DNA of 64,000 nt, taken from positions 2,356,001-2,420,000 of the forward strand of contig NZ_AP027364.1 of assembly GCF_030295975.1 (NCBI RefSeq), in the 5' to 3' direction. Numbering within the stretch: position 1 is the stretch's first letter; every line of letters begins with the position of its first letter. Under the pieces are notes generated by a model that had not been told where the DNA came from, did not search any database, and was given only the letters and a program-made list of their open reading frames with translations. Shown one piece after another: positions 3,855-27,374 of the stretch. This DNA comes from Thalassotalea atypica (lineage in GTDB: Bacteria; Pseudomonadota; Gammaproteobacteria; Enterobacterales; Alteromonadaceae). The position numbers were made by a program, and so were the translations under genes.

Positions 3855-6800
3855 TTATTTGATTGGATCACTATGCAAACTTAGTAACATTAGCTCTCGA
3901 AGTGCAACCGAAAACTTAGCAAACTCATGATTTTGTGAGGTCCTAAATTCAGCAAGGATATGTTCCCATCGTTCTAAAGGCTGACCATTTTGTTCAAACC
4001 AAGTATCAAGTAATTGGTCAATATCTTTGCTTTTCGCATCGACTTTCAATGCTACGATAGTGATTGAGCGTTGCTGCCAATCTAACTCTTCTCTAAATGA
4101 AGCTCTTGCTAATGCTTGCCAATGGTTCGATACAGGTTGTTTTGTAATCTGATCTAGGAACCAGTGCAATGACAAACGTTCGCCTAATGCAAAATACAAT
4201 TCAGCAACAAATTCAATAGAACGACCGTCAGCATCAGCTATCTCAGCGATATCCATAATTGAGAATAAGGTGCTTAATTGAGAAATACGCGTTGCTATTT
4301 TCTTAGGCACGCCCGCATTAACCAAATCTGTCTCTACACGTATAAGGCCATCAACTTCTTCTTTGACCATAAACTTGTGTAAGTTTTTAGACATAGAATC
4401 AAATGTTGGACGGTAAAAATCGATGCTTTCTTGAATGCTTAACGCTTTATTACGGTGGCGCAAGAACCAACGAGTAGCGCGACGGACATTGCGGCGTAGC
4501 TGGAATAACATTTCAGTTTGAACGCTCGTTTGAATCTTATTATCTAGCGCTTCAATACCTTGCCAAATCATTTCCATTTCAAACACTTCACTGGCCATCG
4601 TATAACAATTAGCTATCTCGTGAACGGCTGCGCCTGTTTCTTCCTTCATGCGATTAACAAAGTTAAAACCCATGTCATTGCCAAGTTTATTCGCCAGTTT
4701 AGTGGCAATAATTTCCGCGCGAAGTGGATGCTCTTGCATTTGTGCCGAGTACTTTTCCTGCAATTGTTTAGGGAAAGCGCTGATCAACAAGTGATCATGG
4801 TAAGGGTTACTGGTTATTTCAGAACAAACCAAATCTTCCTTTAATACCATTTTGCTGTAGGCAAGAAGTACGGCAAGCTCTGGTCGCGTTAAGCCTTTGC
4901 CTTGTGCTAAACGCTCTGTGATTTCATCATCATTTGGAATGAACTCTAAGGCGCGATCTAATTTGCCTGCTCGTTCTAACTCATTAATAAAGCGAGTTTG
5001 CTCTTTCAATGAAGATGCACCACGCAAGGTGGTAATTGACAATGAATGCGTCTGACGATAACAATCTTCTAATACGATTTCAGAAACCTCATCGGTCATG
5101 TCGTACAATAATTGGTTACGTTGCTTAACCGTTAAATCGCCACTTTGTACTAAACCGTTAAGTAATATTTTGATGTTCACTTCATTATCTGAACAATCAA
5201 CACCACCGGCGTTATCTACAGCATCGGTATTCATGCGACCACCATTAGCTGTGTATTCGATACGGCCTAATTGAGTACAACCTAAGTTACCACCTTCACC
5301 GATAACTTTCGCTTGCAGCTCATTACCGTTTATACGTAGCGAGTCATTTGCTCTGTCGCCCACTTCCAAATGACTTTCTTTGGTTGCTTTAACGTAAGTA
5401 CCAATACCACCATTCCAAAGCAAATCAACCTTCATCATTAAAATAGCTTTGATCAAATCATTTGGCGCCATTGATTGCTTCTGCGTGCCAATCATTTTCT
5501 TGATTTGCGGCGTAAGCTTAATTGATTTAGCACTACGGCTAAATAAACCACCACCTTCAGAAATTAGATCTTTGTTGTAATCTTCCCAAGAGCACCCCGG
5601 TAGATTAAATAAGCGCTCACGCTCTTTATACGTTTTCGCCGCGTTTGGCTCTGGATCGATAAAGATGTGCATATGGTTAAAGGCAGCTTGCAAACGAATG
5701 TGCTTAGATAACAACATGCCATTACCAAACACATCCCCTGCCATATCACCAATACCTATTACGGTGAAATCAGTTGATTGACAGTCAATATCCATTTCGC
5801 GGAAATGTCTTTTAACAGACTCCCATGCACCTTTTGCTGTGATACCCATACCTTTATGGTCATAACCAACACTTCCACCTGAGGCAAATGCGTCGCCTAA
5901 CCAGTGGTTGTATTCATCTGATATTTCATTTGCGATATCTGAAAAAGTCGCTGTACCTTTATCAGCAGCAACAACTAAGTAGGCATCATCTTCATCGTGT
6001 CGAACCACATTAATAGGCGGTACAACTTCACCTTTAATAATGTTATCAGTAATGTCTAACAAGCCTCGAATAAAGGTACGGTAACATTCCTTACCTGCTT
6101 CAAATATTTCTTGTCGGCTACCGTCTTCTGGCAATTGCTTACAAACAAAGCCACCTTTCGCACCAACCGGAACAATTACAGTATTTTTAACTTGCTGTGC
6201 TTTTACTAGACCCAACACTTCAGTACGGAAGTCTTCTCGTCGGTCAGACCAGCGTAGACCACCACGCGCTACTTTTCCGCCACGTAAATGAACACCTTCC
6301 ACTTGCGGTGAATAGACAAATATCTCAAATTTAGGGATAGGTAATGGAATTTCAGAAATATTCTCAGGTAATATTTTAAATGAAATGTACGACTTTTCTT
6401 CACCAGCTGCGTTTGCTTGGAAGTAGTTTGTTCTAATGGTTGCGCTAATCATCTCAACGAAACGTCTGATGATTCTGTCATCATCTAAGTTTGCTACTCT
6501 ATCTAGAGAAGCCTCAATATCTTCCAATACTTTAGTTTGTGTTTTAGCGGCAACTTTCTTACCTGGCTCAAATCGTAGGTTAAATTGTTTGATCAACAAT
6601 TCAGCGATGTTTGGATAGCGAGCAAACGTATCTTCGATATAACTTTGGCTGAAAGTACCACCAATTTGTCGCTCATACTTAGCAAAAGCACGCAATATTG
6701 ATACTTCACGACCACCTAAACCAGCGCCTAAGATCAAACGGTTAAAGCCATCATCTTCTAAATGCCCCGCCCAAACTTTGGCAAAGGCATCTTGGAACAA

Positions 6801-8699
6801 CATCTGCACTTTTTCCAAATTAAATGTACGATCTCCGGTGAGCAACATCGAGAAATCAAGAATCCAACATGTTTCACCATCAGCCGTTCGCACTGCATAT
6901 GGGCTTTCACCAATGATACGAAGACCAAAGTTTTCAAGCATGGGTAATACGTCTGATAAATGCAGCGGTTCGCCTTTATGGAACAGCTTAAGTTTTACAA
7001 ATCGACTGTCCGCAGACTCTTCTTGTGGCTGATAAAACAACATCTCTAATTGGTTGTCATCAGCAAGCGCCTCCAGTTTTTCTATATCAACAATTGCAGT
7101 GCCCGGTAAAACTTCGTCTTTATATGACTGAGGGAAAATTGAATATTTACGGCCTAGCGCTTTTCCTAGAGATTCACCTTTGTGCGATTTTAATGCCGAG
7201 GCAAGTTTGTCGTCCCAACTTCTAGCGGCTTCATTTAAATTCTTTTCTATTTCTTTCACGTTTATATCCGCTTTGGTGTTGTCGACACGTACAATGTAAT
7301 GAGTTCTTGCTTGCACTGACTCTGAGAAATAAGTGGTAAACTCTACTTCTCTGGTCGTGCCAAACGCTTCTTGTAGTAAATTCTGAGTTTCTATACGTAA
7401 TTTAGTGTTGTAACGTTCACGGGGAACATAAACCATACAAGAATAGAAACGATTAAAGGCGTCACGGCGTACAAATAAACCGGAATAGTCACGCTCTTGC
7501 ATTTGTAAAATGCCTTTTACATTTTGCAAAAGCTCTTCTACGCTTGATTGCAAAATTTCGTCACGTGGGTATGTTTCTAAAATGTTGATCAGCGTTTTAT
7601 ACGCGTGGCTACCAATGGCAAAACCAGAAGACGAACATACATCTGAAACTTTCGATTTAATTAATGGAAGATCAAGAGCACTATTGGTGTAGTATGCTGA
7701 GCCAAATAAACCCACAAAACGCTCTTCACCGGTGACATTACCTTCATCATCAAACGTTTTAACGCCAATATAATCTAAGTGAGCTGGTCGATGTACGCGA
7801 GAACGGGAGTTAGTTTTTGTTAGAATAAGGAGGTTACTTCCTAACGCAACTTCTCTTGCAGATTCACTTAATGTTGATAACAAGCGTTGTTTAGTTCCTT
7901 TAGAGTTTTTCATTAACCCTAAGCTTGACTCTACATTAGCAGACAATGCCATATCACCTTTTAAGGTATCCACAGCGTATGAGCGATAGCCCATAATCGT
8001 AAAGTTGTTGTCAGCGACCCACTGTAAGAATTCTAACGCATCGTCTTTGTCTTGCTTTGAGCAAGGTACCTTAGCTTTTTTTAAATCGGTAATTATCGAG
8101 TTTAATTTCCCAAGCATAGGTTTCCAGTCTGTCACGGTTAAAGAGATGTCGCTCACAACTGAATGTAGCTCTTTGGTCAAGGTCTCAAGCACTTGTGCAT
8201 CGTCTTGACGATCAATCTCAATGAAAAATACCGTTTCAACGCTTGCGGATTTGATTGACTTATCTGTTGCGGATGACAGCTTAGATATATGCTTGTTTTT
8301 GTCTCTAACGATATTCATTGGACAGTTAAGCATTAGGTGTGGCGATAACCCTTGACGATTTAGTGCGATTCTTAACGAGTCCACCAAGAAAGGCATATCT
8401 CTAACAATCACCTCAACTACAGTATGACTTGATTTCCAGCCATGTTTAGAAACTTCAGGATTAAATACCTTAATCACCGGCGTATCATATTGATGGCCAT
8501 TAAGTGAATTCCAAAGGCTTAATGTAGCCCCGTATAAATCACTATCATTTCTATGAGCTAAATCTAAATTGGAAATGTTGCCATATAATAAATTTGCAAA
8601 CTGCTCAACCAAAGGGGCTGTGTCAGCTGGAACTTTTTGTTGAATAAATTTGGCTACATTTTTTAGTAGTACTGAGGGTAAACCGTCTACGAACGCCAT
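3855..8699 (-). CDS. gdhB: NAD-specific glutamate dehydrogenase, 180-kDa class
   Basis: This is a 1614-residue catabolic glutamate dehydrogenase that converts glutamate plus NAD+ to 2-oxoglutarate and ammonium in the cytoplasm, feeding amino-acid carbon into the TCA cycle. The length is exactly typical of the large class known from Streptomyces, Pseudomonas and Shewanella. The N-terminal half is the regulatory ACT-like region. The catalytic region begins near residue 815 with GGLRWSDRREDFRTEV; the substrate-binding lysine is in PVGAKGGFV near 846, and a dinucleotide-fold motif (GIGDMAGDVFGNGML) follows. A long helical C-terminal domain completes it. ATG at 8699 has AAGGA upstream. It is monocistronic: ~370 bp of non-coding DNA upstream and a terminator downstream. 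Allosteric control is usual in the family, but the effector cannot be read here. Confidence 0.97.
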   Translation of the reverse strand: MAFVDGLPSVLLKNVAKFIQQKVPADTAPLVEQFANLLYGNISNLDLAHRNDSDLYGATLSLWNSLNGHQYDTPVIKVFNPEVSKHGWKSSHTVVEVIVRDMPFLVDSLRIALNRQGLSPHLMLNCPMNIVRDKNKHISKLSSATDKSIKSASVETVFFIEIDRQDDAQVLETLTKELHSVVSDISLTVTDWKPMLGKLNSIITDLKKAKVPCSKQDKDDALEFLQWVADNNFTIMGYRSYAVDTLKGDMALSANVESSLGLMKNSKGTKQRLLSTLSESAREVALGSNLLILTKTNSRSRVHRPAHLDYIGVKTFDDEGNVTGEERFVGLFGSAYYTNSALDLPLIKSKVSDVCSSSGFAIGSHAYKTLINILETYPRDEILQSSVEELLQNVKGILQMQERDYSGLFVRRDAFNRFYSCMVYVPRERYNTKLRIETQNLLQEAFGTTREVEFTTYFSESVQARTHYIVRVDNTKADINVKEIEKNLNEAARSWDDKLASALKSHKGESLGKALGRKYSIFPQSYKDEVLPGTAIVDIEKLEALADDNQLEMLFYQPQEESADSRFVKLKLFHKGEPLHLSDVLPMLENFGLRIIGESPYAVRTADGETCWILDFSMLLTGDRTFNLEKVQMLFQDAFAKVWAGHLEDDGFNRLILGAGLGGREVSILRAFAKYERQIGGTFSQSYIEDTFARYPNIAELLIKQFNLRFEPGKKVAAKTQTKVLEDIEASLDRVANLDDDRIIRRFVEMISATIRTNYFQANAAGEEKSYISFKILPENISEIPLPIPKFEIFVYSPQVEGVHLRGGKVARGGLRWSDRREDFRTEVLGLVKAQQVKNTVIVPVGAKGGFVCKQLPEDGSRQEIFEAGKECYRTFIRGLLDITDNIIKGEVVPPINVVRHDEDDAYLVVAADKGTATFSDIANEISDEYNHWLGDAFASGGSVGYDHKGMGITAKGAWESVKRHFREMDIDCQSTDFTVIGIGDMAGDVFGNGMLLSKHIRLQAAFNHMHIFIDPEPNAAKTYKERERLFNLPGCSWEDYNKDLISEGGGLFSRSAKSIKLTPQIKKMIGTQKQSMAPNDLIKAILMMKVDLLWNGGIGTYVKATKESHLEVGDRANDSLRINGNELQAKVIGEGGNLGCTQLGRIEYTANGGRMNTDAVDNAGGVDCSDNEVNIKILLNGLVQSGDLTVKQRNQLLYDMTDEVSEIVLEDCYRQTHSLSITTLRGASSLKEQTRFINELERAGKLDRALEFIPNDDEITERLAQGKGLTRPELAVLLAYSKMVLKEDLVCSEITSNPYHDHLLISAFPKQLQEKYSAQMQEHPLRAEIIATKLANKLGNDMGFNFVNRMKEETGAAVHEIANCYTMASEVFEMEMIWQGIEALDNKIQTSVQTEMLFQLRRNVRRATRWFLRHRNKALSIQESIDFYRPTFDSMSKNLHKFMVKEEVDGLIRVETDLVNAGVPKKIATRISQLSTLFSIMDIAEIADADGRSIEFVAELYFALGERLSLHWFLDQITKQPVSNHWQALARASFREELDWQQRSITIVALKVDAKSKDIDQLLDTWFEQNGQPLERWEHILAEFRTSQNHEFAKFSVALRELMLLSLHSDPIK

Positions 8700-9073
8700 G
8701 GAGCTTTCCTTTTGGATAACACGCTTTGAATAATTGTTGTTTATGTTGACTGCACCAAATCAATAGCGAACCACTTGATTATTCTTGTTCAACACTTTTT
8801 ATTATTATTTGTTGAATTCTACTGAATAATTATTAGCTATATTTTGTTTGATTTATCAGCAAGTAATGTCTATTCCATTCAGAATAGACCATTGGCGGTA
8901 ATTTTATTAAGAAAGTAAGCTTAAAGCGAGGATTATTTTTTGGTAAGACCTGTTAGAAACAAAGGGTTAGCGCATTTAATCCGCATAGATTAAATCATTA
9001 TTCAGTCTCTATAAATAGAAAATGGCCTTTCGGCCATTTTCTCGATTATTTATTCAAGGAAAGTGATTACAAT
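8700..9073. other. Gap holding the gdhB promoter region
   Basis: No gene. The half nearest gdhB should contain its promoter; an inverted TTCAAC/GTTGAA pair (8788-8793 and 8811-8816) is the only symmetric signal and is weak. I could not choose a convincing -35/-10 pair. The other end holds the terminator of the MMPL operon. Confidence 0.4.
9018..9041 (-). terminator. Terminator of the DUF1302-MMPL operon
   Basis: Perfect 10-bp arms GAAAATGGCC/GGCCATTTTC with a 4-nt loop, 33 bp past the MMPL stop codon. The minus-strand tail is only moderately T-rich, so efficiency is uncertain. Confidence 0.75.
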
Positions 9074-11395
9074 TTATTTTTTACCGTCTAATTTATTAGG
9101 CCATAAAAATGCAGCTATTGCTGGTAATACGATTATCGCTGCAAGCATATTCACTAAAAACATAAAGGTTAACAATATCCCCATGTCTACCTGAAATTTG
9201 AGCGCTGAAAAGAACCAAGTAGAAACGCCAATTGCTAGTGTAATACCGGTGATTAACACCGCACTTCCTCTTTCAGATAGCGCCGCTAAATAGGCATTTT
9301 CTACTGTTTCACCTTGACGAAGTTTTTCGCTCATAGTCGACAGTATATATATACCGTAGTCGACACCAATACCTACACCTAATGCGATAACAGGTAGCGT
9401 AGATACAGTTAAGCCAATATCAAGCGCAGTCATTAAACCTTGAGCCAATGTTGAGACCACATATAAAGGTAATACAACCACCACTGTTGCCCTAACACTT
9501 CTAAAGCTCAATAAACACAACACGATCACCGCACCATAGACATAAAGCATCATCGGTAGTTGAGCTTCCTCAACCGCTTCATTAGTTGCAGCCATAACTC
9601 CTACAGGACCAGACGCTAACTTAAATTGTAAGTTGTCATTGTTTAGCTGTTCAGACACGGCTTTAACTTTCGTGATAACACGATTAATTGTTTCAGCTTT
9701 GTGATCTTCTAAGAAAAGAATTACCGGCATCACACTGCAATCACGATTTAATAGACCACTACTTGTAGGTACGCGGGCAATTGATTGCACCAACGTTTGT
9801 TGATTTCGAGATAAGGTTCGCCATTTAGGGTTACCTTCGTTATAGCCCGCATTCACAAGTTTCGAAATTGACGCAAGACTGACTGCAGATTGCACACCTT
9901 TTACATTTTCGAGCTGCCATTGAAATTGATCGATAACATTCAAATTATCATGGCTTGTACAGGCATCCGCAGATGTTTCTATAATCACTGACATGTAATC
10001 AACACTGATAGCGTAACGATCCGTAATTAAAAACGTATCTTGGTTATATCGAGAACTTTCATGTAACGCGGGAGCTCCAGCATGTAATTCACCAATTTTC
10101 AGATTCTGTGAATGATACATACCAAACAAATACAACAAAACAGTAATGAATATTACGAAAGATGCAGGCCCTTTAGTTGCGAGCTTTGCCATCGCTTGCC
10201 AAATATCACTTTTGTGAATTTTATGCTTAGGTGGTTTTTCCGTTTTAATTTTCAGGTAAGAAATTACAACAGGCAATAGCACAAGGTTCGTTAGGATAAT
10301 CATAGCAACACCTATCGATGCCGTAATTGCTAATTCACGAATGATACCTATATCAATCGACAATAAGGTCATAAAACCTACCGTATCTGATAACAGCGCA
10401 ATACCACCTGGAATTAACAATGCTTTAAAGCTATTTTGCGCTGCAATTTTACTCGTTGCACCAAATCGAACCTGCTTAACCACGGAATTAATCATTTGAA
10501 CGCCATGACTAACGCCAATAGCAAATACTAGAAACGGTACCAAAATCGACATCGGATCGATGCCAAATCCAAGGTAGGATAAAGCGCCCATCTGCCAGAT
10601 TACCGCGACGAGAGAGCATACAATGGGTAGTAAAGTTAGGTTAATCGAGCGACAGAATAAGTAAACCATCAATGCCGTTATTGCGATCGCAATAGCGAAA
10701 AAGGCAACAACACCTTTAGCCCCTTCAGCAACGTCACCCACCATTTTGGCAAAACCAATAATGTGTATGCTGATTCTTGAGCTTTCAAATTGGGCGCGAA
10801 TTTCGTTTTCGAGTTGTTCTGAAAGTTTGAGTGTATCGAGCTTTTCATTAGTGTTAGGGTCAACTTCCATTAATGACGTAGTCACCATGGCGCAACTATA
10901 GTCATCTGCTACTATGCGCCCTACGATACCCGCTTTTTCAATGTTACCTTTTACAATCGCTAAGCCTGCTTCATCAGCTTTGAAGTTCGCTGGAATTACA
11001 GGTCCGCCGGCAAAACCATCTTCTACCACTTCAACAAAGCGCGTGCTTGGAGAAAACAGAGATTTAACCTGAATACGGTCGACGCCAGGAATAAAGAATA
11101 ACTGATCATGAACATTTTTTAGTGCATTAAAAAATGTCTCATTAAAAATATCACCCTCTGTATCACACACAGAGATTAAAATATTGTTAGCACCACCAAA
11201 ATCTTTTTGGTGCTTCAAATACGTTTTCATGTAGGAATGATTTAATGGGATGTTTTTTGTAAACGCCGCGTCCAACTTTAAGTGGGTTGCTTGAAATATA
11301 AAAAAACAGGTAGCAACTACAAATAAAGCTAAAACTAAAAGGCGGTGACGAAATATACCTACTTCAATACGGTTTATTGTTGAATTCATACTCAT
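9074..11395 (-). CDS. MMPL-family RND transporter
   Basis: About 773 residues with RND/MMPL topology: one N-terminal helix, a ~180-residue periplasmic loop, a five-helix block (approx. 230-400), a second periplasmic loop, then a second block near the C-terminus. Both blocks carry internal-repeat signatures, FAIGVSHGVQMIN in the first and GVGIGVDYGIYIL in the second. The family exports or moves lipids and other hydrophobic molecules using the proton gradient. ATG at 11395 or 11389 is preferred over the TTG at 11410, which lies inside the preceding gene; only 4 bp separate the ATG from that stop. It is the last gene of the DUF1302-DUF1329-YCF48 operon, which suggests it is the inner-membrane motor of that system. 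No membrane-fusion protein or TolC is encoded nearby. Cargo unknown. Confidence 0.88.
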   Translation of the reverse strand: MSMNSTINRIEVGIFRHRLLVLALFVVATCFFIFQATHLKLDAAFTKNIPLNHSYMKTYLKHQKDFGGANNILISVCDTEGDIFNETFFNALKNVHDQLFFIPGVDRIQVKSLFSPSTRFVEVVEDGFAGGPVIPANFKADEAGLAIVKGNIEKAGIVGRIVADDYSCAMVTTSLMEVDPNTNEKLDTLKLSEQLENEIRAQFESSRISIHIIGFAKMVGDVAEGAKGVVAFFAIAIAITALMVYLFCRSINLTLLPIVCSLVAVIWQMGALSYLGFGIDPMSILVPFLVFAIGVSHGVQMINSVVKQVRFGATSKIAAQNSFKALLIPGGIALLSDTVGFMTLLSIDIGIIRELAITASIGVAMIILTNLVLLPVVISYLKIKTEKPPKHKIHKSDIWQAMAKLATKGPASFVIFITVLLYLFGMYHSQNLKIGELHAGAPALHESSRYNQDTFLITDRYAISVDYMSVIIETSADACTSHDNLNVIDQFQWQLENVKGVQSAVSLASISKLVNAGYNEGNPKWRTLSRNQQTLVQSIARVPTSSGLLNRDCSVMPVILFLEDHKAETINRVITKVKAVSEQLNNDNLQFKLASGPVGVMAATNEAVEEAQLPMMLYVYGAVIVLCLLSFRSVRATVVVVLPLYVVSTLAQGLMTALDIGLTVSTLPVIALGVGIGVDYGIYILSTMSEKLRQGETVENAYLAALSERGSAVLITGITLAIGVSTWFFSALKFQVDMGILLTFMFLVNMLAAIIVLPAIAAFLWPNKLDGKK

Positions 11396-11399
11396 AAAA

Positions 11400-12410
11400 C
11401 TACTTCGCAATTGTTATTTTTTTAATGCCTACTTCAGAGGCGGCATAGAGTGCATTTTTATACCACGTACCGGCAATCATCGCTTTTCCATCATGTTCAG
11501 GGCGAAGTCTAAACGTAAGGCCGTCATCATCACTGATCAGTAACACGCCATTATTTCCGACCACTAAGACACGATCATCGTCAGTTAACACTATATCACT
11601 CAGCAATGCGGTTGTTTTCGTTTGGACGTGGGACCATGGAGTACCGTTTCTAAGGCTTCTAAATATGTTACCTCGAAGACCTGCAACAATTAAATTTCCA
11701 CTTTGCGTACGTTCCATATCAAAAAATGAACCTTGATAAATGTTTTGATACGGTTCCCAAGTAACTCCAAAATCATTACTTTTAGCTATCAGCCCCATTT
11801 CACCGGCAAGGTACATAGTTCTCCCATCTTGCACTATTCGGTTAAAATGCGGCAATATAGAAGCACGTTCATCCAAATAGGACTCCTCGTCTTCCATCTT
11901 TAATTCATTTAAATACTCTATGTCTTCTAACGGTAAAAATTCTTCATGAAACTCTTCTGTCCATGTTTTACCGCCGTTATCAGTCCGATAAAACATGCCA
12001 TAGGCTCCAATAGCGATACCGTTATTAACATCTTTGAACAAAACGTCTAACAATGGTTTTTCTTTTGCAGGTAAGTATTGCTGAATTTGCCATGTTTTAC
12101 CGCCATTTGAACTGTGTAAGATAGTTGCATCATGGCCAACTGCCCAACCTAATTGATGAGTTGCAAAATAAACACCAGTAAGCGTTGATTGAACGGGTAC
12201 AGATGACTGAGTCCATGTATCACCATCGATAGAGCGTAGTATATGGCCACGTTCCCCTACCGCAATGATGTATGACTGCTCAACATTTTGAACATCTAAT
12301 AGTAAAGATTTTTCAGCTAATGGCGCAATAGCCGCAGGCTCTGGATTGACGGCTGCTAAAGAATGCCCGAAAGTGAGACTAGCTAGAAGTACAGCGACAG
12401 TTTTCTTCAT
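11400..12410 (-). CDS. Exported YCF48/BNR-like beta-propeller protein
   Basis: 336 aa with a Sec signal peptide (MKKTVAVLLASLTFG, cleavage probably after SLAA). Repeated blades follow with the BNR/YCF48 pattern: Ser-x-Asp-Gly-x-x-Trp (RSIDGDTWTQS), SSNGGKTWQIQ, RTDNGGKTWTEE, KSNDFGVTWEPY and a degenerate last copy. The name comes from a photosystem II assembly factor, but this organism shows no photosynthesis genes. In this operon it is more likely a periplasmic scaffold or substrate-handling protein. The ATG at 12410 begins the signal peptide; an upstream TTG at 12425 would add non-signal residues. Its position between DUF1329 and MMPL genes is a recurrent arrangement in proteobacteria. Confidence 0.85.
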   Translation of the reverse strand: MKKTVAVLLASLTFGHSLAAVNPEPAAIAPLAEKSLLLDVQNVEQSYIIAVGERGHILRSIDGDTWTQSSVPVQSTLTGVYFATHQLGWAVGHDATILHSSNGGKTWQIQQYLPAKEKPLLDVLFKDVNNGIAIGAYGMFYRTDNGGKTWTEEFHEEFLPLEDIEYLNELKMEDEESYLDERASILPHFNRIVQDGRTMYLAGEMGLIAKSNDFGVTWEPYQNIYQGSFFDMERTQSGNLIVAGLRGNIFRSLRNGTPWSHVQTKTTALLSDIVLTDDDRVLVVGNNGVLLISDDDGLTFRLRPEHDGKAMIAGTWYKNALYAASEVGIKKITIAK

Positions 12411-12447
12411 TAAAAAACCACTCAAAATATCAATATTGTGTAAATAA

Positions 12448-12474
12448 AAACGGCTGACATCAGGTCAGCCGTTT
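12448..12474 (-). terminator. Terminator-like hairpin after the DUF1329 gene
   Basis: Perfect 10-bp arms AAACGGCTGA/TCAGCCGTTT with a 7-nt loop and a T-rich minus-strand tail. It lies inside the operon, between the DUF1329 and YCF48 genes, so it probably lowers rather than abolishes expression of the last two genes. Confidence 0.8.
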
Positions 12475-12491
12475 GTTTTTCCCCGTTTGGG

Positions 12492-13856
12492 TTAACGACG
12501 ACCTTCGCGTCTTAATGCCGCTGGTGTGAACGACTTATCTTCCAATGTAGCAGAGAAATCATACATTTCAGCTTCATTGTCTAAACCAATAGCGATATAA
12601 CGACGTGCTTGTATATCATGGAATACTTCTAGCGTAGACCATTGTGTAGGCACTTCATAGTAATTTATACCATGAGCCACACCAACACGATACAATTCAT
12701 CACGGTTATCGTATATATCAGTTACGGCGATTTGCCAGCTGTCTTCATCAATAAAGAAAACACGTTTCTTATAAGTATGACGAGTATCAGATTTTAAGTT
12801 TGCTTCAACCACCCATACTCGGTGTTTTTCATAACGAACTAAGTCAGGGTTAATATGGCCTGGTTGGATAATTTCATCATACTTGACGCTATCACTGTGC
12901 AAACGATAGTCATTGTAAGGAATTAATAACTCTTGCTTTCCTTTTAATGTCCATGTGTATCGATCTGGTGCACCGTTATACATATCAAAATCATCTGTTG
13001 TACGTAAACCATCTGACGCTGTACCTGGTGCATCATACGCTACGTTAGGAGCACGGCGAACACGACGTTGACCAGTGTTATAAGTCCAGGCTTGACGAGG
13101 AGTTTTAATTTGGTCCATTGTTTCATGCACCAATAAAGCTGTACCCGCTATACGTGCAGGAGAAGACACTTTCTGTTTGAATTTAAACAGAATATTTGAC
13201 TCTTGTAACTTCTCTGGTGCAGCGCCTTTTACGTTATATGGCAACATTAACTGTTCGTCGAAGCCTATATAAGTGTAATCGCCACCAGCAGTTGGAGCTG
13301 CTTGTCCACCTTGACGCGTCAAGCCTTCTCCACGATAACGCAAAATGTGATTCCAAATAGCTTCCAAACCCGTTGATGGAATTGGGAATGGCACACCAAC
13401 AGCTGCCTGTGTAATACCATTGCCACCTTCAACTAACTCTGCACGAGCAGCATTGTCAATCGACGCTTGGTACACATGCTCAGGAAATGATGCAGAGCGA
13501 CGTGTTTGATAAACGTTCATTTTGTAGGTATCAGGATAAGTTTCAAATAATTTAACTTGCCCTGGTGTCAATAACTCTTTGTACTCGCCCACATTAGCTG
13601 AGGTAATAGTATATTCGACTTTATCACCTGAGAATGGATCTGGGTGATGATCTCCCGGAGTATAACCTGCAGGAGCTGCTTTAATACCACCATCCCACGC
13701 AGGAATTGAACCGTCAGCATTGGCACCACGTTCTGCCCCCACTGGCGTTAGTTCTTTTGATAATTTAGCTGAATCCGCAGGGGATACTTTGGCTAGCGCA
13801 ATATTACTAGTTACTGCAAGCGAAACCGCTAAAGATAATAAGGTTAACTTTTTCAT
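12492..13856 (-). CDS. DUF1329 outer-membrane lipid-binding-type protein
   Basis: 454 aa with a signal peptide (MKKLTLLSLAVSLAVTSNIALA) and no lipobox Cys. The DUF1329 pattern is clear: GAERGANADGSIPAWDGG near residue 40, DPFSGDK near 75, then strand-rich segments through to YDFSATLEDKSFTPAALRREGRR. DUF1329 proteins are related in fold to LolB/LppX-type lipid carriers and are nearly always encoded next to DUF1302 genes, which lie here 14 bp upstream. A periplasmic or outer-membrane carrier of a hydrophobic compound is the reasonable inference. AAGGA is present, though about 10 nt further from ATG than ideal. Confidence 0.9.
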   Translation of the reverse strand: MKKLTLLSLAVSLAVTSNIALAKVSPADSAKLSKELTPVGAERGANADGSIPAWDGGIKAAPAGYTPGDHHPDPFSGDKVEYTITSANVGEYKELLTPGQVKLFETYPDTYKMNVYQTRRSASFPEHVYQASIDNAARAELVEGGNGITQAAVGVPFPIPSTGLEAIWNHILRYRGEGLTRQGGQAAPTAGGDYTYIGFDEQLMLPYNVKGAAPEKLQESNILFKFKQKVSSPARIAGTALLVHETMDQIKTPRQAWTYNTGQRRVRRAPNVAYDAPGTASDGLRTTDDFDMYNGAPDRYTWTLKGKQELLIPYNDYRLHSDSVKYDEIIQPGHINPDLVRYEKHRVWVVEANLKSDTRHTYKKRVFFIDEDSWQIAVTDIYDNRDELYRVGVAHGINYYEVPTQWSTLEVFHDIQARRYIAIGLDNEAEMYDFSATLEDKSFTPAALRREGRR

Positions 13857-13870
13857 TTGTTAATATGTCC

Positions 13871-15922
13871 TTAAATTGAATACTTAATGCTAAAAGACAC
13901 GAAATCACGATCTTCCATCTTATTGGTAGTTCCTACGCCATCGAAGAACGTATTGTAGCCAATGTTTGCTGACCAACGGCTCTGATAATCAAAATCAAGT
14001 GCAAACGATACTGATTTTCTATCTTCGACAAATAAAAACAACGGATCTGGTGTGATACCTTCTACATCATGTGAGAATACAATTCGTGGCGACACGTTTA
14101 TGCCAGCAAACACGTTAGTGTAATCGAGTTTTAATAAAGCGCGGTACCCCCAAGCAAATTCGTCTGGGAATGGATTAGTTTCAACGCCGTCTTGAAGCGC
14201 TAGTTCTAACCCTTCTTTCCCAGCAATACCGCCATTACGCGCTGTACCAGGACCGTTAAGGCGTAACTCGTCTTCATCAGGCATATCATTGATATTGATA
14301 CCGCCTATTTCAAACAAACCTGTTGCCTGTGCAGCACCTAACGTAGGGCCAAATAAATGCGTTAACGTCATTTGAGCTTGAACAGTATCAGATAAAATAA
14401 ATCCGTCGGCAGTTTCACCTGGACCAAATGTATCCATTTGAGATACACCATCTAAATCAGGACGAATACCTGCGTTTGCCAATTGTTGAGGCATAGCGGC
14501 AAACAACAACTCTACATCATCAATCTGCAGTGGCTCGTCTTGGCGGTAAGATATTTCACCTGCAACAGCCGTAGTACCAACCGTTGTATTAAAGCTCATC
14601 GCATAAAGTTTTATGTCTTCAGGATATGATAATAATACTTTAGAGAATGCCTGCAGATCACTGTAGTTATCTTCAGTGATTTGATTTGTAGCAATTGTCG
14701 CTAAGTCATTTGCAATAGCAGCGGAAGTAAAGTCAGCCGTTACGCCAGAAAATAGTGGTCGACGGCTATGGTAGTTCATGTGATACAAACTGATTTCAGT
14801 ATCATTTAACTCAGGTAAATACCAAGACAAACGTAAACCGTATTGACCGCCATCTTCTGGCTCTAGTTCAGCTTGGCTGCCTGGTGCACGTAGCGTTAAT
14901 TTAGTTGGGTAGGCAAGATACCCAGCTGCCGCAGCTGCTCCTAATGTTGGGTCACCACTGCGTAACATATCGCCAATGCCGTTTAAGCCCGCTAGTAGGA
15001 AGTCTAGATCCATGTCAGGGTTACCGGTAAATCCAAGTTGCACATTATTATAGTGACCACCATCACCGGCGAAATCATTGGTTGAGAAATAACTACCTGG
15101 TGCAGGAAGAATTGTTTTCTCCCAATCATATTGGTAGAACATTTCAATGTTAAAGTTTTCAGTAACACCTAAAGATGCCCAAACAGCACCGAATGGAATG
15201 AATGCTTCTTTGAGCTCTGAGCCTGGCGCTCTTAATCGTGCGATATCAACAGGGTTTAGCTCACTGATACCGTGTGAAATTAACGTACTTTCACCCCAGC
15301 TGATTACTTGCTGACCTACGCGAATAGAAAAAGGCATTTCGCCTATATCAAAATCACCATAGAAGAACGCATCAAGCAGACGAATATCACTACATAGTTG
15401 ATCAGAGGCTTCGTCGTCTCGACAAGGATCATTAGTCACACCTGATGTCGGATTTGTCCATGCTCTGTCTTCATCAGACATTTCAAAATCATAAAAATAC
15501 ATACCACGGATGAAAACACCCATGTTGCCATTATTGATATCTAATTCATGTGTGCCTTTAACGATGGTAGAAAACGCGTCACCTGAATCATAGTTAAGGT
15601 TGCCATTGTCACCATTATTTGAATAACCACCTTGGCCGTCCCATAAATCGGCGTTGATGGGTGTTGCATTGAATGCTGGGTGATAGTTAGAAAAATCAAA
15701 ACCGTTGTTTAGGTTATTTGATTTACCAACATTATCGTTCCAATTTCTGTCTTCTACTCGCCAACTTGACCCAAGAGAAAAGGTAGAGTCGAAGCTAATA
15801 TCAAAATCACCCAACTGAAAATTGGTGGCGTTTACACTTGGAGCGGTAATAGCCATTAAAGCGGCGGTTATACTCGCTGCTAAAGGCTTTTTGTAAAAAC
15901 TTACACGCGGGCTCTGTTTCAT
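13871..15922 (-). CDS. DUF1302 outer-membrane beta-barrel protein
   Basis: 683 aa with a long signal peptide (through PSVNA near residue 32) followed by FQLGDFDISFDSTFSLGSSWR, the usual DUF1302 opening. Alternating amphipathic strands run throughout, with loops rich in Asp/Asn/Gly, and the chain ends in FSIKYSI, a barrel-type terminal strand although its last residue is Ile rather than Phe. An extracellular-loop cysteine pair is visible (DPCRDD...QLCSD). The family is predicted to form outer-membrane channels for hydrophobic molecules. It is the first gene of the operon, with GGAGAG upstream of the ATG, ~325 bp of regulatory DNA before it and a 24-bp palindrome within that. Confidence 0.9.
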   Translation of the reverse strand: MKQSPRVSFYKKPLAASITAALMAITAPSVNATNFQLGDFDISFDSTFSLGSSWRVEDRNWNDNVGKSNNLNNGFDFSNYHPAFNATPINADLWDGQGGYSNNGDNGNLNYDSGDAFSTIVKGTHELDINNGNMGVFIRGMYFYDFEMSDEDRAWTNPTSGVTNDPCRDDEASDQLCSDIRLLDAFFYGDFDIGEMPFSIRVGQQVISWGESTLISHGISELNPVDIARLRAPGSELKEAFIPFGAVWASLGVTENFNIEMFYQYDWEKTILPAPGSYFSTNDFAGDGGHYNNVQLGFTGNPDMDLDFLLAGLNGIGDMLRSGDPTLGAAAAAGYLAYPTKLTLRAPGSQAELEPEDGGQYGLRLSWYLPELNDTEISLYHMNYHSRRPLFSGVTADFTSAAIANDLATIATNQITEDNYSDLQAFSKVLLSYPEDIKLYAMSFNTTVGTTAVAGEISYRQDEPLQIDDVELLFAAMPQQLANAGIRPDLDGVSQMDTFGPGETADGFILSDTVQAQMTLTHLFGPTLGAAQATGLFEIGGININDMPDEDELRLNGPGTARNGGIAGKEGLELALQDGVETNPFPDEFAWGYRALLKLDYTNVFAGINVSPRIVFSHDVEGITPDPLFLFVEDRKSVSFALDFDYQSRWSANIGYNTFFDGVGTTNKMEDRDFVSFSIKYSI

Positions 15923-16105
15923 TCATTCTCTCCCCAGTCCTGAAACAATTCTTATTTTTCTGTTTTACTTTGTAATTTTTTGTTGTCCACATGGTGGATT
16001 AAACAATAATTGCATCATTTTCAATGTCTGGCAAGTTCAAATCACGAATGTTGATGTGCTTTATTTTAATGGCTTGCACACTATAAAAGCAGAACAATTA
16101 AACAC

Positions 16106-16129
16106 CGTTTAAAACAACTGTTTTAAACG
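16106..16129. promoter_or_regulatory. 24-bp near-perfect palindrome upstream of DUF1302 operon
   Basis: Arms CGTTTAAAACA and TGTTTTAAACG are exact inverted repeats around a 2-bp centre, about 185 bp upstream of the DUF1302 start. There is no T-run on the operon side, and it lies between two genes pointing the same way (DUF2835, and DUF1302 further downstream), so a dimeric-regulator operator is more likely than a terminator. The regulator is not encoded beside it. The rest of the 15923-16248 gap holds no gene. Confidence 0.5.
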
Positions 16130-16248
16130 AATGTAATTTAGGCAGGTTTTAGGGAAAGAACTGGCTGAATAGCCCCTGTAATGGTTAATCTACGAAAAGC
16201 CAAGGAACAGGCTCATGGTCTGACCACTGTTTAAAGCATATACTCTAA

Positions 16249-16464
16249 TTATGTTATTTTCTCTAATTTTTTAAATTTATTATTTTCCGTTTCTAAGCTG
16301 AAGATCCCCTCTATTCCATCGCTTGTAAGGTATTTTCTTAAATACATTGCTGGAAACTGTACTCTAATATGTTCAAATGTTGTAACAACGACCTGTTGAA
16401 TTTCTCCCCGATAATAGGGGAGAAACTCTTGAGTAGACATCTTTAGCACAAATTTATACTTCAC
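16249..16464 (-). CDS. DUF2835 small protein
   Basis: 71 aa. The pattern MKYKFVLKMSTQEFLPYYRG, then QQVVV, then RVQFPAMYLRKYLTSDGIEGIF is the DUF2835 signature: a short PilZ-size beta-rich protein of unknown function found in gammaproteobacteria. It starts with GTG at 16464 and overlaps the pepN stop by 4 bp (GTGA), so it should be translationally coupled to pepN. Such overlap in a cytoplasmic housekeeping gene suggests constant co-expression rather than a shared pathway. Confidence 0.85.
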   Translation of the reverse strand: MKYKFVLKMSTQEFLPYYRGEIQQVVVTTFEHIRVQFPAMYLRKYLTSDGIEGIFSLETENNKFKKLEKIT

Positions 16465-19028
16465 GTTAAAGCGGCATCCAATTTTTCGACAAGATCACGC
16501 GCCAATTCTGGAGTTTTCTGAATACGTTGTAATTCTGTCTTCATCAAATTTTGCCTAGCAACATCAAATTCTTTAAATTGAATCAATGGCGTAATTAACC
16601 TTGAGGCAACCTGAGGATTAATCTTATTGAGTTCAACAATACGGTCTGCTAAAAATTGGTAACCTCTCCCGCTTTCGCAATGAAAATATTTAGGGTTTTG
16701 CGTGACAAATCCTCCAACCAATGAGCGTGCTCTGTTCGGGTTATTCATACTAAAATCGTCACGTGCCATTAAGGCCGTTAACTGGCCATAAATATCATCA
16801 TTGGGCACTGAAGCAGATAAGGTAAACCATTTATCCATAACTAACGTAGTGTCACGCCACTGATTTTCAAAGTCCGACATTAATACCTTAAACATTGAGG
16901 TATTTTGTTTAATCGCCGCGGTCAAAGCGCCTAGCGCCTGAGTCATATTATTTGCTTTGTAATACTGCTTTTCCGTTAATTCTTCATGTGCAGTTATAGC
17001 GCTGAGATATGACAAACTAACATTCTGCAATGAACGGTTAGCAACTTGTTCACCCTCATCTACTGATTGAAATTCTTCGCACTGCTGATACACACCTAGC
17101 AGCTGGGACTCTAATTGAGTCGCAATCAGTTGCTTCAATTGTTCAATAGCTGCACATAGGCTAGTCGCGTTAACTTGTTCAATTTGTGATACCATTTCAT
17201 CAAAACTTGGTAACGTCAGTAATAAAGCTTTAAAAGCGTTATCTTTAATATCACTGATACAACGCGATAACATTTCAAAAAATGATGTTGGAATATCTGT
17301 TGTTATATCAATGGTTAGACGTTTTAGATGGTGTTGCATAATTTTTTGCGCTGCATCCCAACGACAAAAATAATCATCCGCCAAGGTCAATATTTGGCTG
17401 AGTTCCTCATTGCTTTGGTCAAAACGTACCTTCACTGGCGCTGAAAAGTCTGCAAGCACTGCGACAACAGGCTTATGAGTACAGCTAAAGCTCCATGACT
17501 GACTAGCCGATGTTAGCTCGAGCAATTTAGAAGTAACTTCTTCCGTGACAGGATCGATTAATTCTATTCTAATTGGGATATGTAAATCGTGCTTATTGGG
17601 TTGATTATCCGATGGTCGATGGAATTGAGAAATGTTCAAGTCAAAACGCTTACTCACACTATCATAATTTTGCTCTACAATTAGCTCAGGTGTACCTGAT
17701 TGAGCATACCAGCGCTTAAACAGCGTTAAGTCCTTACCTGTTGCATCAGCCATAGCATTAACAAAATCATCGCAAGTCACGGCCATTCCGTCAAAGCGTT
17801 TAAAGTACAAGTCCATGCCTTGTCTAAAACCTTCTGCGCCCAGTAATGTGTGGATCATTCTTATCACTTCCGAACCCTTTTCATACACAGTTAATGTATA
17901 AAAGTTATTCATTTCCATCACTTTTTCAGGCCTAATTGGATGCGACATAGGGCCGGCATCTTCAGCAAATTGCATCGCTCGAAGTACTTTGACATTTTGA
18001 ATGCGCGTTACCGATTTAGAATGCATGTCGGCGCTGAACTGCTGATCTCTAAAAACTGTCAGCCCTTCTTTCAGACTTAGCTGAAACCAGTCACGACAGG
18101 TCACACGATTACCTGTCCAATTATGAAAATACTCATGAGCAATGACGGCTTCTATATTGAAGTAATCAGTATCAGTGGCACTTGCTTTATCGGCTAAAAC
18201 GTACTTGCTATTAAATACGTTGAGGCCTTTGTTTTCCATTGCGCCCATATTGAAAAAATCGACAGCAACAATCATATAAATATCTAAGTCGTACTCTAGC
18301 CCAAAGGTTTTCTCATCCCAAGCCATTGAATGCTTAAGCGATGCCATAGCATGTTCGGCTTTAGGTAAGTTTCCCTTATCAACAAATATTTCCAACGCCA
18401 CGTCACGACCAGATGACGTTTGATAGCTATCGCTGAGCAGATCAAAATCACCGGCAACTAATGCAAATAAGTAAGCGGGTTTAGGGAACGGATCATGCCA
18501 TGTAACATAATGCTGGCCTTCACCTAACTCCCCTTCTTCAATTTTATTACCGTTGGAGAGTAAATATGGATACGCGTCTTTGTCTGCAATCACCTTTGTG
18601 GTAAATACAGACATCACATCAGGTCTATCTAAATAGTAGGTAATTCGCCTAAAACCTTCTGCTTCACATTGAGTACAAAATGCATCGCCTGACTTAAATA
18701 ACCCTTCTAATGCTGTATTAGCCTCGGGGTTGATTTCGGTTTCAATCACAAGTGTGAATTGGTTTTGAGATACCGGAATTACCAATGTAGTATCCGATAA
18801 CATATATTCATTCTTGCTCAGTGTTTTACCGTCAAGTGAAATAGATTTTAATATTAAGTGTTCACCATCTAGTGTCAGCTCACTGGCTGTATCTGAGAGT
18901 TTTTCAATGGTCAGCTCACTGCTAACATGAGTCGCTGCATTAGAAAGTGTTACAGTTAAATTGACTGTCTTGATCGCAAATTCGCTAGCGGTATAGTCGG
19001 ATAAATAACGTGCGGTAAATTCTGACAT
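16461..19028 (-). CDS. pepN: Aminopeptidase N
   Basis: This M1-family zinc aminopeptidase removes N-terminal residues from peptides in the cytoplasm, finishing protein turnover. At 855 aa it is close to the E. coli enzyme (870). The exopeptidase motif GAMEN is at 262-266. The zinc site is HEYFH at 298-302, with the third ligand Glu321 in LKEG. An N-terminal beta domain, the catalytic domain and a long helical C-terminal domain follow in the expected order. ATG at 19028 has AGAAGG upstream. DUF2835 follows with a 4-bp overlap; nhaC lies upstream in the same direction, with its own terminator in between. Confidence 0.97.
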   Translation of the reverse strand: MSEFTARYLSDYTASEFAIKTVNLTVTLSNAATHVSSELTIEKLSDTASELTLDGEHLILKSISLDGKTLSKNEYMLSDTTLVIPVSQNQFTLVIETEINPEANTALEGLFKSGDAFCTQCEAEGFRRITYYLDRPDVMSVFTTKVIADKDAYPYLLSNGNKIEEGELGEGQHYVTWHDPFPKPAYLFALVAGDFDLLSDSYQTSSGRDVALEIFVDKGNLPKAEHAMASLKHSMAWDEKTFGLEYDLDIYMIVAVDFFNMGAMENKGLNVFNSKYVLADKASATDTDYFNIEAVIAHEYFHNWTGNRVTCRDWFQLSLKEGLTVFRDQQFSADMHSKSVTRIQNVKVLRAMQFAEDAGPMSHPIRPEKVMEMNNFYTLTVYEKGSEVIRMIHTLLGAEGFRQGMDLYFKRFDGMAVTCDDFVNAMADATGKDLTLFKRWYAQSGTPELIVEQNYDSVSKRFDLNISQFHRPSDNQPNKHDLHIPIRIELIDPVTEEVTSKLLELTSASQSWSFSCTHKPVVAVLADFSAPVKVRFDQSNEELSQILTLADDYFCRWDAAQKIMQHHLKRLTIDITTDIPTSFFEMLSRCISDIKDNAFKALLLTLPSFDEMVSQIEQVNATSLCAAIEQLKQLIATQLESQLLGVYQQCEEFQSVDEGEQVANRSLQNVSLSYLSAITAHEELTEKQYYKANNMTQALGALTAAIKQNTSMFKVLMSDFENQWRDTTLVMDKWFTLSASVPNDDIYGQLTALMARDDFSMNNPNRARSLVGGFVTQNPKYFHCESGRGYQFLADRIVELNKINPQVASRLITPLIQFKEFDVARQNLMKTELQRIQKTPELARDLVEKLDAALT

Positions 19029-25896: not shown

Positions 25897-27087
25897 CTAG
25901 AAGCTATCTCCTGGTATACGAACAACACCTTCCATTAAAATTCTTGCACTTCGACTCATGATCGCTTTTTCGACAACCCAACTACTGTCAATTTGACTAG
26001 CCTGTGCGCCTACCTTTAGCGTACCTGAAGGATGCCCAAAAGTAACACTGTTCCTTTCACCACCACCTGCCGCTAGGTTTACCGTTGTTCCAGGTATCGC
26101 TGCTGCAGTGCCGATAGCGACAGCTGCTGTGCCCATCATAGCATGGTGTAACTTACCCATAGATAATGCGCGAACATTTAGATCAATATCCGACTCAGTA
26201 ATCGACTTACCACTAGAGGCAGTATAATCTTTGGCAGGTGAAACAAACGCTACCTTGGGTGTGTGTTGACGAGTTTTTGCTTCTTCTAATGAACTAATCA
26301 AGCCCATTTTTAATGCACCATGAGCACGTATAGTTTCAAAAAAGGCTAGCTGCTCTTCACTACTATTAATATCATCTTGTAGCTCAAACCCCTGATAACC
26401 AATTTCATCAGCATTTAAGAAAATGGTTGGAATGCCTGCTGTGATCATAGTCGCGGTCAACGTACCGGTTTTCGAGATACAAGACGGTACTTCTAGTTGG
26501 TCAACAACATTTCCTGTTGGAAACATGGCTTCACTTGGATCTACAGGTGCAATAAACTCAACCGGCACTTCTGCTGCAGGAAACGTTACACCATCAAGCT
26601 CAAAATCACCGGTTTCTTGCACTTCACCATTGGTAATAGGCACTTGTGCAATAATAGTTTTACTAATATTTGCTTGCCAGATACGTACTGTACATACGCC
26701 ATTTTCAGGAATACGGTCTTTAGCCACAAGGCCTGCATAAATTGCAAATGAGCCTACAGCTGCAGTCAAGTTGCCACAATTTCCCGACCAATCAACAAAG
26801 GCTCTATCAATGGCCACTTGACCAAAAAGGTAATCCACATCGTGATTTTCTTGTTCAGACTTTGACAATATCACGGTTTTACTCGTGCTTGATGTCGCCC
26901 CGCCCATACCGTCGGTTTGTTTTCCGTATGGGTCAGGGCTGCCAATCACGCGCAATAGCATGTTATCACGGGCTTCACCGGCAACCTGACAACGGTCAGG
27001 CAAGTCAGTTAAATTGAAAAATACACCTTTCGACGTACCGCCACGGATGTATGTAGCTGGAATCTTTACTTGAGGGACATGATTCAT
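25897..27087 (-). CDS. prpF: 2-methylaconitate isomerase
   Basis: 396 aa. PrpF converts the trans-2-methylaconitate released by AcnD to the cis form, so that the methylcitrate cycle can continue. It belongs to the diaminopimelate-epimerase fold. Visible features: PATYIRGGTSKGVFF at the N-terminus, GMGGATSSTSK near 62, WSGNCGNLTAAVG near 106, and MGKLHHAMMGT/AVAIGTAAAIPGT near 320. The catalytic Lys/Cys/Ser neighbourhood (GGTSKGV; NCGN) is intact. PrpF is found only with AcnD, whose gene lies upstream across a 287-bp gap carrying a hairpin. Confidence 0.96.
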   Translation of the reverse strand: MNHVPQVKIPATYIRGGTSKGVFFNLTDLPDRCQVAGEARDNMLLRVIGSPDPYGKQTDGMGGATSSTSKTVILSKSEQENHDVDYLFGQVAIDRAFVDWSGNCGNLTAAVGSFAIYAGLVAKDRIPENGVCTVRIWQANISKTIIAQVPITNGEVQETGDFELDGVTFPAAEVPVEFIAPVDPSEAMFPTGNVVDQLEVPSCISKTGTLTATMITAGIPTIFLNADEIGYQGFELQDDINSSEEQLAFFETIRAHGALKMGLISSLEEAKTRQHTPKVAFVSPAKDYTASSGKSITESDIDLNVRALSMGKLHHAMMGTAAVAIGTAAAIPGTTVNLAAGGGERNSVTFGHPSGTLKVGAQASQIDSSWVVEKAIMSRSARILMEGVVRIPGDSF

Positions 27088-27219
27088 GTATTTACCTTCA
27101 ATAGTTTTCGCTTATCAAACGGATAATTTATGGCGTTGAATAACGTCACATAGAAGTGACGTGTTTCTTCTATTCACCTTGCTAAATCACCTTTTGCTTT
27201 GCGACCTTTCATTTGATAA

Positions 27220-27253
27220 AAAGCAGCAAATTAGCTATCTAAATTGCTGCTTT
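27220..27253 (-). terminator. Hairpin between acnD and prpF, possible attenuating terminator
   Basis: Arms AAAGCAGCAA and TTGCTGCTTT with an AT-rich inner loop, followed on the minus strand by T5. It lies 122 bp past acnD and would reduce readthrough into prpF. An RNA-processing site is the alternative. Confidence 0.6.
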
Positions 27254-27374
27254 GATTATTTACCTATGCAAAGTTGATTTCCATAAGAAGAGTTTTAAGT
27301 TTTGCCAAGAACGAAACGCTGAATGTACACGTATACATGAGCACTTCCAACACAAGACAAACACTAAAAATCAA

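Follow-up and report, generated by a model that had tools for sequence, protein, structure and literature searches.

The four-gene cassette and its genomic setting

The window analysed here, a 64,000-nucleotide (nt) stretch of the Thalassotalea atypica genome (NZ_AP027364.1, positions 2,356,001 to 2,420,000), holds a four-gene cassette for envelope proteins between pepN (16461-19028) and an NAD-glutamate dehydrogenase gene (gdh, 3855-8699). The four open reading frames (ORFs) run on the minus strand in the order A-B-C-D, at the coordinates given in an earlier note on this DNA, and the Pfam matches agree with the families named there. Gene A (13871-15922, 683 amino acids) encodes a DUF1302 outer-membrane beta-barrel of the AmeA type (PF06980, 546 bits); gene B (12492-13856, 454 amino acids) a DUF1329 periplasmic carrier of the AmeB type (PF07044, 519 bits; LolA_like, 41 bits); gene C (11400-12410) an exported YCF48/BNR beta-propeller of the AmeC type (PSII_BNR/YCF48, PF14870, 81 bits); and gene D (9074-11395) an HAE3/MMPL pump of the RND family and, putatively, of the AmeD type (MMPL, PF03176, 104 bits). 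The ORF of gene C opens at a TTG (12425 to 11400, 341 amino acids), with an ATG that begins a signal peptide at 12410, and that of gene D also opens at a TTG (11410 to 9074, 778 amino acids), its first in-frame ATG lying at 11395. A and B are 14 nt apart and C and D 4 nt, while the B-C gap measures 66 or 81 nt, depending on whether C is taken to start at the TTG or at the ATG. Signal-peptide-like N-termini can be read from the translations of A, B and C. The best NCBIfam match of pump D is HAE3 (TIGR00921), at 189 bits and thus under the model cut-off of 351.9; D is a candidate member of the AmeD lineage of HAE3. A profile scan detected no membrane fusion protein or TolC-type family, the partners known from HAE1-type tripartite RND efflux, in the four genes or in the flanking pepN, nhaC and gdh, in keeping with the earlier note. 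By family content and gene order, the cassette is an Ame-type HAE3 four-component set.

Comparative analysis of the neighbourhood reveals that this arrangement is not a peculiarity of one species. Full-length DUF1329 is present in 57 of 59 genomes of the family (52 genera), in a single copy in 53 of the 57, and all 61 full-length matches were taken for the neighbourhood survey. A-B-C-D followed by gdh is found in 51 of the 57 carrier genomes, with pepN preceding the cassette in 50 of them and the remaining contig starting at gene A. The cassette is hence core to the family and pepN-linked. Conservation of the neighbourhood bears out the suggestion that the set recurs, whereas the association with steroid or hydrocarbon degraders put forward alongside it does not hold in this lineage, where we find a core syntenic locus and not a specialty. 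Among the best 80 of at least 594 loci, 27 show PepN-A-B-C-D-GDH, in Colwellia, Alteromonas, Rheinheimera, Pseudoalteromonas, Shewanella, Ferrimonas and other genera, and nine more show PepN-A-B-C-D, eight of these in Pseudomonas; other genomes carry PepN-B-C-D or PepN-C-D alone.

Predicted fatty-acid operators upstream of the cassette

The best lead to the cargo of the system comes from predicted operators that lie upstream of gene A, outside the coordinates covered by the earlier note. The gap between pepN and gene A contains a palindrome, TTAAAACAGTTGTTTTAA (16109-16126), located 186 nt upstream of the start of A, which matches the PsrA motif and is the only match in the window to TTNAAACNNNNGTTTNAA, with 0.01 expected. 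The PsrA footprint at P. putida rpoS has been reported as TTCAAACN4GTTTGAA (PMC13104628), a shorter consensus is available for Pseudomonas (PMC11233452), and PsrA is reported to control fatty-acid degradation in Shewanella and other Gammaproteobacteria (PMC3223726, PMC5343134). The genome encodes a PsrA protein (equivalog match of 315.8 bits, cut-off 300) and carries nine sites for the motif, as against none for a reversed control. Six of these sites are located at psrA, fadB, etf-QO/etfB, an acyl-CoA dehydrogenase gene (with the same 18 bases as the window box), an enoyl-CoA hydratase gene divergent from an AraC gene, and the A-B-C-D cassette itself. On the basis of the psrA gene and the upstream box, the cassette is a predicted member of the PsrA regulon.

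The box was sought in 72 pepN-linked loci of the family, comprising 50 from the family survey (window included) and 22 placed there by hand; the box counts exclude L145 and L148, which duplicate genomes G016 and G055, and judged by length no other contig on the lists was a duplicate. A perfect box lies upstream of A in 28 of the 72 and a box with at most one mismatch in 33, the latter being found also in 8 of 23 other pepN-linked loci, in none of 74 unlinked loci and in none of 880 arbitrary windows. Most Alteromonas-like relatives carry AACTGGTACGATTTGTT-like sites instead of the PsrA box. A matrix was derived from seven FadR sites of E. coli listed among the primers of PMC4259882, sites that themselves score 9.6 to 17.4 by leave-one-out, and it gives scores of at least 13 in 25 of 49 family cassettes (49 instead of 50 because L030 has no upstream sequence). 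Either a PsrA box with at most one mismatch or a FadR site at this score is present in 44 of the 49, and both in only three. These motif counts suggest that the core cassette is controlled by two different fatty-acid repressors in sister lineages. In the window itself, a FadR-like palindrome, TGGTCAGACCA (16216-16226), is the only match of its kind and recurs upstream of A in Colwellia-type relatives. Of five Pseudomonas-type A-B pairs located behind an acyl-CoA ligase gene, four (L111, L191, L192 and L196) carry CAAACAAGCGTTTG and one (L197) lacks it. A further element, AAAATGATGCAATTATTGT (16003-16021, minus strand), overlaps a promoter-like hit at 16034-16006 and recurs, as the pattern AAAATGATGYAATYATTTT with up to three mismatches, in 45 of 50 family cassettes (0.1 in shuffles); it is possibly the core promoter or another operator.

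Several observations weigh against this regulatory assignment. Three of the nine PsrA-motif sites lie away from fatty-acid genes: one is in the start region of ilvC/LysR, one precedes pdhR and one falls within a LysM/transglycosylase frame. Exact copies of the shorter form TTNAAACANNTGTTTNAA number between 0 and 6 per genome in 16 family genomes (14 hand-picked for a box-like palindrome at the cassette and two Alteromonas-like), and only 9 of the 14 box-bearing genomes have one at the cassette. The controls are not all empty either: a second PsrA control gives 10 of 2065 windows, next to the blank arbitrary set, and the two FadR controls give 20 of 2065 and 30 of 880. The FadR-like palindrome of the window is weak, scoring only 5.3 on the E. 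coli matrix, and falls short of an E. coli-like FadR site. In six Alteromonas-like genomes a strict FadR-like pattern occurs one to three times, once at the cassette in five of them as judged by position, and a wider FadR regulon was not seen in these six genomes with that pattern. As for prior work, we found no literature joining PsrA with COG1033 or COG4447, although RegPrecise and Kazakov et al. (2009) may list these genes; among papers mentioning DUF1329 or DUF1302, none concerned PsrA by its title or the start of its abstract.

A conserved hairpin between the outer and inner parts

The earlier note had pointed to a terminator-like hairpin after DUF1329 and had proposed that it sets the stoichiometry between the outer and inner parts of the system. 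Such a hairpin, with a T tail, is indeed present at the B-C junction (12448-12474, minus strand), and a second, palindromic one lies past gene D (9017-9042, minus strand, listed on the plus strand). Hairpins were scanned for within 100 nt of each stop codon in the 50 pepN-gdh cassettes of the family, window included, with dinucleotide shuffles as control. A T-tailed hairpin follows B in 47 of the 50 (shuffle mean 0.9) and D in 37 (0.35); none follows A (0.4) and three follow C (1.35). Judged by these counts, the predicted hairpins after B and D are not chance-like. Thirteen other cassettes yielded five hairpins after B (0.2 in shuffles); under the stricter criteria of an initial scan over all 63 cassettes, 40 had a hairpin after B and 37 after D, with none after A or C. 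The syntenic locus L066 is missing from the hairpin counts and from some operator counts because an early start makes its A and B frames overlap by over 100 nt; its hairpin was found by the covariance model.

The stem is alike in 44 of the 50 cassettes, with the consensus CGGYTGGC/GCCARCCG, and these 44 hairpins were aligned to assess covariation (L034, L040, L043, L045, L049 and L061 were left out). In this alignment 97.5% of the cells pair and 6 of 11 pairs change on both sides (1.5 in shuffles), one pair being C-G in 19 hairpins, U-A in 13 and U-G in 12, and the covariation of the predicted hairpin is strong. The exact family stem pattern is found a single time, at the B-C junction, in each of 9 out of 11 hand-picked family genomes and not at all in the other two, the cassette of one of which sits elsewhere; in several Pseudomonas loci the hairpin at this junction is a different one. 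Two other roles for this element were considered and set aside. A DNA operator is ruled out by a loop that ranges from 3 to 7 nt and by the frequency of G-U pairs, and the notion of a unique regulatory RNA finds no support, as the covariance model also matches other places in the genome: it returns 33 matches up to E = 10, some on both strands of one place, with the best (47.8 bits) at the B-C junction and the next place (39.8 bits) at a plain intergenic terminator. The Rfam search of positions 8690-16480 gave no match up to E = 1.

The distance from the hairpin to the start of gene C, chosen by signal peptide, is below 45 nt in 36 of the 50 cassettes, which scarcely leaves room for a promoter, and the pump genes C and D are therefore probably reached by read-through past the hairpin. 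In the remaining 14 cassettes the distance is 54 to 226 nt, in most of them enough for a promoter, and here a different account suggests itself: the hairpin might process the messenger of A and B or stabilise its 3' end, or else mark the border between two independent transcription units. That the stem sequence is conserved while the loop varies would also suit this account, which we nevertheless regard as doubtful given the presence of stem and T tail in 47 of 50 cassettes, the short distance to gene C in most of them and the existence of at least one ordinary terminator that resembles it at another place in the genome. We thus continue to favour read-through past a leaky terminator. A role of the hairpin, real and conserved at the outer/inner boundary, in setting the stoichiometry between A and B on the one hand and C and D on the other fits this geometry; such a role may be considered supported, short of proof.

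Predicted folds and pump residues

The predicted structures agree with the compartments that had been assigned to the proteins. The AlphaFold2 model of gene A has a predicted local distance difference test score (pLDDT) of 91 and about 18 strands as read from DSSP; aligned with VIA-align, its barrel gives Z scores of 23.6 to OccK2 and to a BenF-like porin and of 22.1 to AlgE. The alignment with 4fms (Z 23.6, root-mean-square deviation (rmsd) 3.2, 310 aligned residues) has an identity of about 9% and denotes fold likeness only. The modelled product of gene A is accordingly a barrel of the OprD/Occ or AlgE type with about 18 strands. OpcA, the barrel proposed for AmeA, is not among the 50 matches listed for gene A, which excludes nothing. 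The model of gene B (pLDDT 93.3) takes a LolA fold from about residue 158 onwards in VIA-align, with a Z score of 22.6 to P. gingivalis LolA3 (9tp6; rmsd 2.5 over 237 residues) and of 20.0 to the DUF1329 protein 4z48. The carrier had been described as LolB-like, and the LolA/LolB superfamily is confirmed; the predicted fold, on the other hand, is nearer LolA than LolB. Searches of solved structures with the single sequences of A and B returned chance-level rows only.

Pump D carries the motif S-H in transmembrane segment 4 (TM4) in all 157 aligned sequences that have letters there, and D-Y in TM10, the aspartate being present in all 158 sequences of the alignment (156 of them distinct). In the 777-residue translation of 11407-9074, the TM4 histidine is H301 and the TM10 aspartate D683. 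As RND pumps of this type mostly bear D-Y in both segments, an asymmetric proton relay is likely in AmeD-type pumps. By profile matches, D is distantly similar to HpnN, BstA and MmpL proteins. The lipid transporters of the HpnN, BstA and MmpL3 type, which share this RND/MMPL family similarity, differ from AmeD-type pumps in having the usual D-Y in TM4; they export lipids and are not known to have a DUF1302 or YCF48 partner.

Related systems, cargo and direction of transport

The kind of four-part system found here is already described, and a firm natural substrate is not established. In the earlier note the cargo had been called unknown, and in the sense of such a substrate the literature agrees; the system is not, however, an undescribed one, as AmeABCD and the Tween 20 phenotype of P. 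putida attest. AmeA-AmeD of Castellaniella defragrans 65Phen comprise DUF1302, LolA-superfamily DUF1329, COG4447 and HAE3 proteins, in that order (PMC6394551), and thus share with the window cassette the four families, the gene order and the predicted compartments. AmeABCD belongs to a monoterpene genomic island and is induced by monoterpenes, whereas the window cassette occupies a core pepN-gdh locus with PsrA/FadR-type operators; the conserved B-C hairpin was observed in the window cassette and its family. Four P. putida proteins, PP_0765 (DUF1302), PP_0766 (DUF1329), PP_2018 and PP_2019, are each required on Tween 20 according to transposon data, and co-folding suggested strong contacts between C and D and weak ones between B and A and between B and D (PMC10866462). 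These counterparts are likewise a DUF1302 protein, a DUF1329 protein, a periplasmic protein and an efflux transporter; they form two gene pairs that stand apart by locus number, as opposed to the single cassette of the window. PP_2017 is presumably pepN and PP_0763 presumably an acyl-CoA ligase gene, which would match loci of this survey. Betaproteobacterial COG4447-COG1033-PF07044-DUF1302 operons, which combine the same four families, have been predicted under AphR, AphS or AphT, regulators of aromatic catabolism, with a suggested role against toxic aromatics and solvent stress (PMC6449761). Two further papers (PMC3110197, PMC3228920) mention the DUF1302/DUF1329 families in passing.

Taken together, we consider it somewhat better than an even bet that the cassette is a core, pepN-linked, Ame-type conveyor of hydrophobic molecules that belongs to the fatty-acid regulon and moves fatty acids or acyl amphiphiles outwards, with C and D expressed by read-through. 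In such a system D, a proton-driven RND pump scaffolded by the C propeller, would pick up hydrophobic acyl cargo at the inner membrane or in the periplasm; B, the LolA-type carrier, would shuttle this cargo across the periplasm, and A, the 18-stranded-type barrel, would pass it through the outer membrane. Transcription would start upstream of A and most transcripts would end at the hairpin after B, leaving C and D to be expressed less, by read-through. PsrA, or FadR in sister lineages, would repress the cassette and release it when long-chain fatty acids are present, the outward movement of free fatty acids or related acyl amphiphiles probably acting as a relief valve. Paralogous sets would have been recruited to other hydrophobes. 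The ancestral cargo is most likely free fatty acids or related acyl amphiphiles, which we rank first because sites for two fatty-acid repressors stand at the cassette and because the P. putida counterparts are needed on a fatty-acid ester.

As regards the direction of transport, uptake is a serious rival to export. The four parts could import fatty acids or their esters independently of FadL, with A admitting them, B carrying them inwards and D acting as an inner-membrane receiver; regulation together with beta-oxidation genes is what an uptake system would be expected to display. The Tween 20 requirement also weighs against a purely outward reading, since it fits uptake as well as export (PMC10866462), and so do some of the Ame data. 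Deletion of ameABCD impairs growth on limonene and other apolar monoterpenes but not on acetate or perillyl alcohol; real-time Nile Red efflux of the mutant almost equals that of the wild type, and its Nile Red accumulation is the same without carbonyl cyanide m-chlorophenylhydrazone (CCCP) or on acetate (PMC6394551). On the other hand, the deletion lowers tolerance to apolar monoterpenes, high limonene being more harmful to the mutant even when acetate is supplied, and CCCP treatment of limonene-grown mutant cells leads to a slight rise in Nile Red accumulation; the authors proposed an exporter and a new HAE3 subfamily (PMC6394551). The efflux assay is hence not decisive. Two considerations lead us to prefer export: known RND pumps are exporters, and the Ame tolerance data point the same way. 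Characterised RND/MMPL proteins in general act as exporters and LolA-type carriers move their cargo outwards, and we regard uptake as the less likely direction.

Still less probable, to our mind, is a house-keeping role in which the core copy moves an endogenous lipid (a phospholipid turnover product, a hydrocarbon or a hopanoid- or wax-like compound) to the outer membrane, the operators matching supply to lipid flux. The near-universal, syntenic and mostly single-copy occurrence of the cassette in the family and the distant similarity of D to HpnN, BstA and MmpL proteins would be in line with such a role. Both published mutant phenotypes that we found concern exogenous hydrophobic substrates, however, and repression by PsrA when fatty acids are absent would be odd for a house-keeping transporter. 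Export of fatty acids or acyl amphiphiles thus stays our preferred reading.

Additional copies and modularity

DUF1329 was detected in 34 of 299 sampled genomes of the phylum (E <= 1e-30), and the pump D in all 27 of the DUF1329 genomes that were searched for it. Copies of B outnumber those of D in 16 of the 27 and equal them in 11 (two pieces of one G209 frame being counted as one, and B counts being at least six in several genomes). Because DUF1329 copies are never fewer than pump copies in these 27 genomes, A-B pairs probably are exchangeable adaptors that share C-D as a common engine. Some loci depart further from the simple cassette. L087 (G134:C3:5001-25000) is an array A-B-B-A-B-C-D next to an acyl-CoA ligase gene, in which a single C-D pair is preceded by three copies of DUF1329 and two of DUF1302; in L119 (G088:C10) a DUF1329 frame is broken by a stop among several DUF1302 genes, and genome G088 has at least six B and at least six D matches.

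The T. atypica genome holds two complete sets, with pumps that are 47% identical. In the second set (L003, G000:C1:4328000-4346000), genes for an MBL hydrolase, a TetR regulator and a GMC oxidoreductase interrupt the series, and the neighbours include AraC, aldehyde dehydrogenase and acyl-CoA ligase genes, which gives it the appearance of a fatty-alcohol or alkanol cluster. An alkane or alcohol cargo was also considered from gene neighbours at large and rejected, such enzymes not being enriched near 55 unlinked copies compared with 20 arbitrary 20 kb regions. Acyl-CoA ligase (7 vs 2) and aldehyde dehydrogenase (6 vs 2) genes are not enriched in this comparison, which counts against a fatty-acid cargo as well; AraC genes are enriched (13 of 55 vs 0 of 20). 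Elsewhere in the window, upstream of the cassette and on the same strand, PrpF and aconitase genes (25897-29978) form part of what we take to be a 2-methylcitrate (propionate) cluster.

Implications

What is new here is the core synteny of the cassette, the conserved and covarying hairpin at the B-C junction and the PsrA/FadR-type sites upstream. These observations place DUF1302 and DUF1329, two still nameless families, in a pump that an entire bacterial family has as part of its core gene set, and the operator evidence makes the question of its substrate directly testable with fatty acids. A bolder proposal, which we put forward tentatively and at less than even confidence, is that the cassette constitutes a proton-driven trans-envelope route for fatty acids independent of FadL, controlled by PsrA or FadR in the Alteromonadales and part of Pseudomonas, in which a leaky terminator would set pump output and swapped A-B adaptors would work on one C-D engine. 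More generally, the modular A-B/C-D layout and the conserved hairpin suggest how one engine could serve several cargoes.

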